Below are positions 13,873 to 16,338 of a stretch of DNA of 34,452 nt, piece after piece (position 1 is the stretch's first letter; every line of letters begins with the position of its first letter). The DNA is from Parcubacteria group bacterium (GTDB lineage: Bacteria; Patescibacteriota; Minisyncoccia; Portnoybacterales; UBA2143): contig NYYU01000032.1 of NCBI GenBank assembly GCA_002685955.1, forward strand, positions 1 to 34,452, given 5' to 3'. The position numbers and the translations under genes were made by a program. The notes under the pieces were generated by a model, which made no database searches, was not told the DNA's origin, and saw only the letters and a list, made by a program, of their open reading frames with translations.

Positions 13873-16338
13873 TTGAGGTGTGTTTATAGTATGAGCGATA
13901 GGAGAAAACATATTTTAAATGTTTTATTCGATGTCAAGCCTGTTAATCACAGGGGTGATTTAGATATAGAAAAAATTAAACAGATGTCAGCTGTTATTGA
14001 TTTGAGAAAAACTAAGGCCATTAGAATAAATGAAGATCAACCAGAGATAGAAGAGCCATTAATAGAAGAACCATTGGCGGATCAAGCTGAATTGCCTGAT
14101 CAAGATACGCTTTTAGCTGAATTAGAGGGCTTTGATAATCTTGATAAGTATTTAGAAAAAGTTCAACTTAGTTCAGTCGAAAAATGGGAAGTCCCGACGC
14201 AAGTCCGACGCTCTGGTACGGACTCCGATCAAAGCATCGGAGGTCGGGATCCCGATCCAAAAGGCATCGGGAAAGATTTAGAACAATTCTATTTCCCCGA
14301 AGCAGCTTCTCAAGATTACCAATTAGCCGCCCAGCCGGCTGTCCAAGAACCAGCTAGCTTGAAAAATGATTTTGATTTCAAATCATTAACCAGGTTTCTA
14401 GTGGCTGGATTTTTAATTGCCATGGTTGTTCCGGCCGCCGTTTGGGTAGATAAAGGTTTTGGTATTAAGGAAAATGTTATGAGTAATAGCTTAGCTGCTT
14501 ATCAGAATCTCTTAGCAGCTAAAGCATCATTAGAAGAGGCTGATTGGCAAACAGCCGGAGAGAATTTCAGCTCGGCTCAATCAGATTTTATTAAAGCCCG
14601 TCAAGAAGTTAATAAATTAAGTAAATTAACCTTAGCCATTCTAGGGCAAATACCTGGCGGTTCAGTTGTTTCTTCAGGCATTCATTTGGTTAAGGTTGGT
14701 GAGAGTTTAGCTCAAGCCGGTCAAACTCTTACTTCAGCCATTGGCCTATTTTCCTTTGATAATTTATTTAATTCAATTAATTTATCTGACGGTTCTCAAC
14801 CATTAAGCCAGAAAATTGCCCTGAATCAGGATAATTTAGTCAAAGCTTTGACCGACATTAGGCTAGCCAGTCAAGAGCTTGATCAAGTTAAAATTGAGGC
14901 CTTGCCAGAGGAAATTCAGACCGGAGCCGTCTCTTTAAAGAAAAAATTGCCCCTAGTTGAAGAAATACTTGCTCAAGCAATTGATTATTCAGATGCTTTA
15001 TTAAAAATCTTGGGTCATGATAATCCTCGCCAGTACTTATTAATCTTTCAAAATAATAGTGAAATTAGAGCGACCGGTGGATTTATTGGCACTTATGGCC
15101 TATTAAAGTTAGATCAAGGTAGAATAGCTAATCTGATGGTTGATGGCGTTTTTAATGTTGATGGGCAGCTTCATGAGAAAATTATCCCGCCTCAGCCCAT
15201 TCAGAAAGTGAGTACGGCTTGGTCAATGCATGATGCTAATTGGTTTCCTGATTTTCCCACTTCAGCCCAAAAGATTTCTTGGTTTTATGAAAAAACCGGA
15301 GGACCAACCACTGATGGAGTAATTAGTTTAACCCCGACCGTGGTAGAGCGACTTTTAAGATTAACTGGTCCGATTGCTATGTCTCAATACGAAGTGATCC
15401 TGGATTCAAATAATTTTGTTGAGTTAGTCCAATACAAAGTAGAGGTTGATTATGATAAAGAGCTGAATCGGCCTAAACAGATTTTAGCTGATTTTGCTCC
15501 TAAATTTATTGAAACCTTGAGTCAATTATCTCCTGAAAAAAGAGCGGAGGTGGTTGAAATTATCCTTGATAGTTTCAAAGAAAAACATATTTTAATCTAT
15601 TTTCGCGATTCAGCATTACAAGGAATTGTAGTTGATGAGGGCTGGGCTGGACAGTTATTGACAACTAGCCGTGATTATCTAAGCGTTGTTTCATCTAATA
15701 TTAACGGGTATAAGACGGATCGGGTCGTTCAAGAAACAATTAAACATCAGGCTGAAATTCAAGCCGATGGTTCAATTATTGATACCTTGACTATTATCCG
15801 CCAGCATCAAGGCGGTAAAGAAAAGTATGATTGGTGGAATCGAGTTAATTCAAACTATTTAAGAGTTTACTTGCCCCGAGGCAGTCAATTAATCTCAGCT
15901 AAGGGTCAAAGCGTAGAAATTTACCAACCGCCCATTGATTACCAGCAACAAGGTTTTAAACAAGACCCTTTAGTTAGTTCAATTGAAGATAAGATGACGA
16001 TTGATTTAAAGACCGGCACCCGGATTTTTGAAGAAAATGGCAAAACAGTTTTTGCTAACTGGGTTTATGTCAGTCCTGGTGAAACAGTTACCTTAGTTTA
16101 TAAGTATAAGCTGCCTTTTAAAATAGACTTGACAAATCCGAGCGATAGTTATAGTTTATTAGCGCAAAAACAAGCCGGCAGCTTGGGCAGCCAATTTAGC
16201 CATCAATTGAAATTTCCTGAAGATTGGTCAGTTTCTTGGCAATATCCAGATGAGAATAAGGCCGAAGCCGGGCTTTGGCGGACAGAAACTGATTTGCAAG
16301 CAGACAGGCTTTTGGGCATAACTTTTGAACTATGGTAA
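13873..16338 (+). CDS. DUF4012-type membrane-anchored protein
   Basis: TM segment FLVAGFLIAMVVPAAVWV; LLIFQNNSEIRATGGFIGTYGLLKLDQGRI; DANWFPDFPTSA. The start may be the downstream MSDRRKH Met (13891) rather than the ORF-track start. Confidence 0.8.
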   Translation: MRCVYSMSDRRKHILNVLFDVKPVNHRGDLDIEKIKQMSAVIDLRKTKAIRINEDQPEIEEPLIEEPLADQAELPDQDTLLAELEGFDNLDKYLEKVQLSSVEKWEVPTQVRRSGTDSDQSIGGRDPDPKGIGKDLEQFYFPEAASQDYQLAAQPAVQEPASLKNDFDFKSLTRFLVAGFLIAMVVPAAVWVDKGFGIKENVMSNSLAAYQNLLAAKASLEEADWQTAGENFSSAQSDFIKARQEVNKLSKLTLAILGQIPGGSVVSSGIHLVKVGESLAQAGQTLTSAIGLFSFDNLFNSINLSDGSQPLSQKIALNQDNLVKALTDIRLASQELDQVKIEALPEEIQTGAVSLKKKLPLVEEILAQAIDYSDALLKILGHDNPRQYLLIFQNNSEIRATGGFIGTYGLLKLDQGRIANLMVDGVFNVDGQLHEKIIPPQPIQKVSTAWSMHDANWFPDFPTSAQKISWFYEKTGGPTTDGVISLTPTVVERLLRLTGPIAMSQYEVILDSNNFVELVQYKVEVDYDKELNRPKQILADFAPKFIETLSQLSPEKRAEVVEIILDSFKEKHILIYFRDSALQGIVVDEGWAGQLLTTSRDYLSVVSSNINGYKTDRVVQETIKHQAEIQADGSIIDTLTIIRQHQGGKEKYDWWNRVNSNYLRVYLPRGSQLISAKGQSVEIYQPPIDYQQQGFKQDPLVSSIEDKMTIDLKTGTRIFEENGKTVFANWVYVSPGETVTLVYKYKLPFKIDLTNPSDSYSLLAQKQAGSLGSQFSHQLKFPEDWSVSWQYPDENKAEAGLWRTETDLQADRLLGITFELW
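14192..14272. repeat. 81-nt nested palindromic element, in-frame in CDS
   Basis: tcccgacgcaag-[tccgacgctctggtacggactccgatcaaagcatcggagg]-tcgggatcccgatccaaaaggcatcggga: outer parts match the 42-nt element family and the inner part is a second palindromic unit. Confidence 0.85.

Follow-up and report, generated by a model that had tools for sequence, protein, structure and literature searches.

A 39-nt double hairpin interrupts a related 42-nt double hairpin, in frame, in the DUF4012 gene of a Parcubacteria group bacterium

The window analysed here is contig C32 (34,452 nt) of a 919-kb draft genome, G000; this and the other assemblies compared are metagenomic drafts. Its DUF4012 gene carries an 81-nt palindromic composite, 27 codons long, in the variable N-terminal linker ahead of the DUF4012 domain. 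Two uninterrupted copies of the same kind of double-hairpin element (DHE) lie in other genes of the window (Table 1).

Table 1. Features of the window, in order of position.
Feature	Position	Strand	Remarks
Uninterrupted 42-nt copy	3626..3667	+	In frame near the C-terminus of the VTT-domain ORF 3014-3679; model R2 67.8 bits, E 2e-15
Interrupted rnpB region (+ strand)	7981-8646		
Hairpin arms flanking the GIY-YIG ORF	8001-8024 and 8269-8292		
GIY-YIG ORF, 85 aa	8014-8268		Interrupts rnpB; PF01541, 63 bits
rnpB	8269-8646	+	RF00010
rnpB hairpin CCCCCCACCACTTTTT/AAAAAGTGGTGGGGGG, second occurrence	8508-8542	+	Without ORF
Host gene, DUF4012 protein	13891..16338	+	Pfam PF13196, E 1.5e-32; orthologues
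Outer element, left piece TCCCGACGCAAG	14192..14203	+	5' arm of hairpin 1 and loop GCAAG
Inner unit A, 39-nt double hairpin	14204..14242	+	At the 3' edge of the outer's loop 1
Outer element, right piece GTCGGGATCCCGATCCAAAAGGCATCGGGA	14243..14272	+	3' arm of hairpin 1 and all of hairpin 2
Other abutting hairpin pair	24090-24131	+	Just 3' of tRNA-Gln
27-nt tandem repeats	30846-30980	+	Near an ORF end; encode EEKPAEEKK-type low complexity
Copy related to the 16S rRNA hairpin GTCGCCTTAGGCGAC	~31585-31599		Upstream of 16S rRNA
Uninterrupted 42-nt copy	31879..31920	+	In frame in a variable loop of the trmD ORF 31651-32319 (Pfam PF01746); R2 64.6 bits
16S rRNA	32460-34081	+	Insert of ~116 nt (122 nt vs 6 in the model)

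Rejoined, the two outer pieces TCCCGACGCAAG-GTCGGGATCCCGATCCAAAAGGCATCGGGA form a 42-nt element of two abutting hairpins, TCCCGAC-GCAAG-GTCGGGA and TCCCGAT-CCAAAAGGC-ATCGGGA. The 39-nt unit between them, inner A, is itself a double hairpin, with an imperfect first hairpin (TCCG..CGGA, 4-5 bp plus a bulge) and a perfect second one of 7 bp (CTCCGAT-CAAAGC-ATCGGAG). The frame is kept through all 27 codons: the protein reads EVPTQ[VRRSGTDSDQSIG]GRDPDPKGIGK, and EVPTQVRRSGTDSDQSIGGRDPDPK is the stretch across the insert. A preliminary description of this DNA had proposed just such an arrangement, a 42-nt outer in two pieces split by a roughly 39-nt unit of two hairpins, 81 nt in total and in frame in a DUF4012-type gene, and this proved exact to the base. 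It had placed the inner at the first hairpin loop, which also holds, although the unit occupies the 3' edge of that loop, after GCAAG, rather than its middle. An unfiltered scan of the window with covariance model R2, whose training set of 17 sequences included the DUF4012 outer copy itself, matched the outer at 47 bits (E 3e-10; match 14223-14272). Inner A was matched at 41.5 bits by R1, an earlier covariance model with a misplaced second stem, which nevertheless recovered copies and was replaced by R2 for later scans. The composite folds with a z of about -5 relative to dinucleotide shuffles, none of 500 shuffles being equally stable, and a composite 92% identical to it occurs in another genus (G005). 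Given this folding, the covariance match of the outer and the copy in another genus, the structure is not a product of chance.

A covariance model search of the whole genome found about 12-13 DHE loci in G000, amounting to roughly 0.06% of it. In-frame copies lie in the conserved protein genes for DUF4012, VTT, TrmD, NusA (two copies) and ribosomal protein L23; NusA and L23, like SSB below, were identified by sequence and neighbourhood, without a family search. Four of the loci are nested composites: the DUF4012 composite carries inner A, and the two in NusA and the one in L23 carry a second unit of 39 nt, inner B (CCCCGAGGTTYCACTCGGGATCCCGATCTAGCATCGGGG), which splits the loop between GT and AAR. 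Solo DHEs are found in VTT, TrmD and 23S rRNA (Rfam RF02541), beside a tRNA and at a few other genes, and another lies in what is probably ribosomal protein S12, to judge by the C-terminus of the protein and an S7-like gene that follows. The coding copies are mostly 42 or 39 nt long; those in 23S rRNA, beside tRNA and at a gene end measure 38, 38 and 37 nt. The inner does occur elsewhere, as the preliminary description required: a near-identical copy (38/39 nt) sits in a different outer in G005 (see below), and C47:39694-39732 of G000 carries a solo inner-A-type element of 37 nt, about 79% identical by eye. The TAA in the loop of this solo element seems to serve the gene upstream as its stop codon. 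The left flank in the window's family is usually AAG, with no GTAG or CGTC tag.

The window also holds repeats of other kinds. The hairpin pair beside tRNA-Gln, CGCCACGTC-ATCC-GACGTGGCG followed by CCCCGTT-GGCT-AACGGGG, failed to match the element model (5.4 bits). Within 16S rRNA, the hairpin GTCGCCTTAGGCGAC occurs twice, at different helices.

Across the class, 79 of 293 genomes contain a match to the 42-nt model at E<=0.001. The basal stem pairs swap compensatorily (T-A, C-G and G-C in column 1; C-G, T-A and G-C in column 2), and compensatory change in both basal pairs of each stem indicates that the fold is maintained. One 23S rRNA site, directly after TGCTCCTAGTTATTR, is occupied in both G000 (L001) and G139 (L158), which belong to different families.

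Comparison with relatives of the same family revealed outer elements without an inner. At the DUF4012 site, G004 has an uninterrupted, decayed 42-nt outer, TCCCGATACAAG-ATCAGGATACAGACTCTAAAGGTGTCGGGA, in the same in-frame place (R2 23.1 bits, E 4e-4), and G005 and G001 have no element there, so that the series none, outer and composite can be read across genomes. At the NusA C-terminus G005 has the outer only (KKPRRKVGIPTQKASGK, 65.3 bits), compared with KKPRR[PRGSTRDPDLASG]KVGTPAKKASGK in G000; these two sites are likely to be exactly orthologous, short of certainty because of their low-complexity flanks. The remaining two counterparts are fainter: in the NusA N-linker G003 retains a decayed 3' half of the outer without the inner (16.9 bits), and in L23 G001 has a decayed uninterrupted element in the same N-terminal place (17.5 bits). 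All four composites thus have outer-only counterparts, two of them clear and two decayed or weak, with mostly one such relative found per site. The TrmD element occurs only in G000, and its site is empty in relatives.

The composites themselves point in the same direction. Among those sharing an inner, the inner differs at 2/117 nt and the outer at 18/126 nt (Fisher p=2.8e-4, an approximate value as two of the three composite pairs used have C55a in common). Inner A is found in a second outer, in the C-terminal linker of SSB in G005, a member of another genus of the same family, with a match of 38/39 nt; no convincing outer-only copy was seen among the SSB orthologues examined. Together, the outer-only orthologous sites and the difference in divergence argue that the outers are older than the inners. 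The sequential insertion put forward in the preliminary description, outer first and inner later, is therefore very probably correct.

In an inner-based scan of the whole genome, all four copies of inner A and B in G000 lie in loop 1, as does the copy in G005, although DHEs take up so small a share of the genome. Their exact positions differ, A following GCAAG and B falling between GT and AAR, which requires at least two primary events. Loop-targeting, as originally suggested, thus stands as a pattern, in five of five inner copies and with two different inners; as a mechanism it is unproven, because recombination between outer copies gives an identical pattern. In this alternative, a single entry of an inner into one outer was followed by its transfer to other outers, through ectopic homologous recombination or gene conversion between the outer halves, with no later targeting of loops. 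It would account for inner B standing at the identical base in all three G000 outers and being found only inside outers. The L23 copy also suggests recombination: its outer, rejoined, would read KVPT and then a stop (TAA), so the bases adjoining inner B (GT...A) probably came along with it. There is precedent at the conserved flanks of yeast mitochondrial GC clusters (PMC4478555). However, the homologous stretches on the two sides measure just 9-12 and 30-33 nt, the outers have diverged right up to the junction (18/126), and the different positions of A and B still demand two or more primary loop insertions. We regard recombination with no later targeting as a serious account, though one less likely than not. 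As the main spreading process, loop-targeted insertion is slightly favoured over recombination between outers, and both fit. Transposition itself was not seen, no target-site duplication is evident, and the A-rich flanks would hide a short one.

Nesting is not confined to G000. Finders that require intact stems would miss insertions into arms, so that any loop preference beyond the inner-based G000 scan is subject to ascertainment. A strict finder detected a nested family hairpin in 12 of 125 distinct element sequences class-wide (own-genome copies included, orientation not normalised, intact arms needed), 8 in the first loop as read and 4 in the second. This finder misses imperfect stems, as in G005, the second NusA copy, G092 and G120. 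Family hairpins are nested in further lineages too, namely G092, G142 (two loci), G012, G120 and G039, and in G060 a single 20-nt palindrome lies inside three different outers. Scanning named genomes with a loop-1-nesting pattern gave 36 matches, mostly due to chance in GC-rich genomes; L101, L103 and L119 (two Kaiserbacteria and a MAG) and L111 (the G005 copy) look real, and L098 and L108 from Omnitrophica are possibly real. These matches were left out of the loop statistics since the pattern itself selects nesting. Two tRNA-linked units are also nested: L299 (G120:C33) has a whole double hairpin inside another's hairpin 1, and L296 (G142:C24) a single hairpin in loop 1.

Three other explanations fare considerably worse. 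Mobilisation of a REP/BIME-type element by a Y1 (RAYT) transposase was considered on account of the left flank (G)TAG on many copies outside the window's family and of a Y1 gene close to an element in G039. This flank was traced, in the loci examined, to tRNA 5' ends (GTAG followed by CTCA) and was rejected as a REP tag. Y1 transposases are also dispensable, since no Y1 gene passes the cut-off in G000 and the DHE-carrying G005 and G006 have none, and their co-occurrence with DHEs is borderline (58/79 vs 131/214 genomes, p=0.055); a RAYT origin is unsupported and we consider it improbable. It is very unlikely that the 81-nt composite moved into genes as one unit: composite A in two genera and composite B at three loci are alike as wholes, but the composite sites have orthologous outer-only copies and the inner and outer divergences differ significantly. 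The remaining idea, an ancestral composite whose inner was deleted precisely in the relatives, perhaps by hairpin slippage, draws on the mostly single outer-only relative per site and on the tendency of hairpins to promote deletion, yet it is no more credible, as it would need precise, in-frame 39-nt losses at four loci in four genera and the inner copies are too alike to match the outers' age.

Outside the window's family, many DHEs split the duplicate of a tRNA 5' end, and the intact tRNA gene follows downstream. At L134, L148, L149 and L182 the order is tRNA 5' piece, double hairpin, rest of the piece, small GIY-YIG ORF and intact tRNA. In a tally over the 30 best loci of a class-wide search with nuclease clade A4, 26 had a same-direction tRNA directly downstream (within ~110 nt) and 12 had a DHE directly upstream, or 7 of 25 without the five seed loci. 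At L290-L310, and at the four loci above, a small GIY-YIG clade lies directly upstream of an intact tRNA with the duplicated tRNA 5' end opposite, the latter often interrupted by a double hairpin. Since DHEs in other families stand directly beside such ORFs in duplicated tRNA 5' ends, the small GIY-YIG nucleases are the best candidate for the acting enzyme; their role as a putative helper of DHE mobility is suggested tentatively, from gene adjacency. G000 lacks the DHE-linked clade, its best match (59 bits) being in rnpB.

The GIY-YIG ORF that interrupts rnpB, flanked by hairpin arms, looks as if it occupies the RNase P RNA P3 loop, and the 5' strands of P1/P2 seem to stand immediately upstream.

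DHEs resemble several known systems. Rickettsia palindromic elements (RPEs) are short palindromic repeats found in frame in conserved protein genes and in RNA genes (tmRNA, RNase P RNA) of a reduced genome; they are reported as 105-146 nt with terminal inverted repeats, RPE-4/6 being CGTC-type REPs (PMC2229807, PMC3733652). DHEs too lie in frame in conserved protein genes, but they are 42/39-nt tandem double hairpins of other sequence, from another host phylum, and nest in their own hairpin loop. REP/BIME elements of the GTAG and CGTC superfamilies are 20-40-nt hairpins, often paired, and some GTAG-15 and CGTC-1 dimers lie inside other palindromes (PMC3733652). The window's family differs in having neither tag, no RAYT over the cut-off in its host, a directly abutting pair and a host palindrome that belongs to the same family; the REPtron feature, a RAYT gene flanked by the repeat, is absent from G000, with the one adjacency in G039. 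Mitochondrial double-hairpin elements, repetitive hairpin elements and yeast GC clusters are described, in the passages of PMC2800124 and PMC4478555 drawn on here, as GC-rich hairpins, single or double, that are dispersed over a small genome and lie in protein and rRNA genes, with units merged and shuffled, flank recombination and intron endonucleases proposed as helpers. DHEs share with them two abutting GC-rich hairpins, dispersal, compensatory change and, as evidence of mobility, presence and absence at orthologous sites (TrmD and the DUF4012 series); the mitochondrial elements are organellar and unrelated in sequence, the term "nested" is absent from both papers, and orthologous outer-only sites do not appear in those passages. 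GIY-YIG insertions in CPR rRNA genes, mostly at the top or base of stem-loops (PMC11270868), are likewise ORFs in structured RNA genes of CPR bacteria, but the main text of that paper does not mention tRNA, hairpins or palindromes, whereas DHE-linked ORFs abut tRNA genes. As for a MITE-like nature, the A-rich flanks of DHEs hide any short target-site duplication and no cognate transposase was found; the GIY-YIG adjacency may liken them to a homing endonuclease-associated unit. In the literature searched, most subscription papers lying outside it, we found no earlier description of the DHE family in CPR bacteria; the family is apparently an undescribed variant of the palindromic elements known to lie in frame, among them RPEs, REPs and mitochondrial double hairpins.

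We propose that 14192-14272 combines two generations of a mobile DHE family, an account that as a whole we consider probable. A 42-nt DHE entered the flexible N-terminal linker of DUF4012 in frame, before the split of G000 and G004. A 39-nt relative then entered the loop of hairpin 1 in the G000 lineage, keeping the frame, and pre-existing DHEs at the two NusA sites and L23 were struck in a like manner by a second inner unit. The inner may preferentially copy itself into a folded DHE at its exposed, single-stranded loop, be it in lagging-strand ssDNA, a cruciform or RNA. Such insertions would survive because both lengths, 42 and 39 nt, are divisible by three, the frames used contain no stop and the sites are linkers. 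More speculatively, and with a clearly smaller chance of being right, this self-nesting family may insert into the hairpin loops of folded nucleic acid in general (its own, the tRNA D-arm, rRNA helix tips), with mobility provided in trans by small GIY-YIG nucleases encoded beside duplicated tRNA 5' ends or, in the window, in the RNase P RNA P3 loop.

Ordered insertions, from none to outer only to outer plus inner, are visible at one gene, and the order is repeated at three more, which opens to comparative tests the old question of how RPEs, REPs, mitochondrial double hairpins and other tiny non-autonomous palindromes spread. The tRNA-linked GIY-YIG nucleases are proposed as a concrete candidate enzyme class for such elements. 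Core proteins of reduced genomes (NusA, L23, TrmD, SSB) carry tags of 14-27 residues of mobile-element origin. If insertion into folded loops by GIY-YIG nucleases is borne out, nesting would record an insertion process that is guided by structure, and not by sequence.
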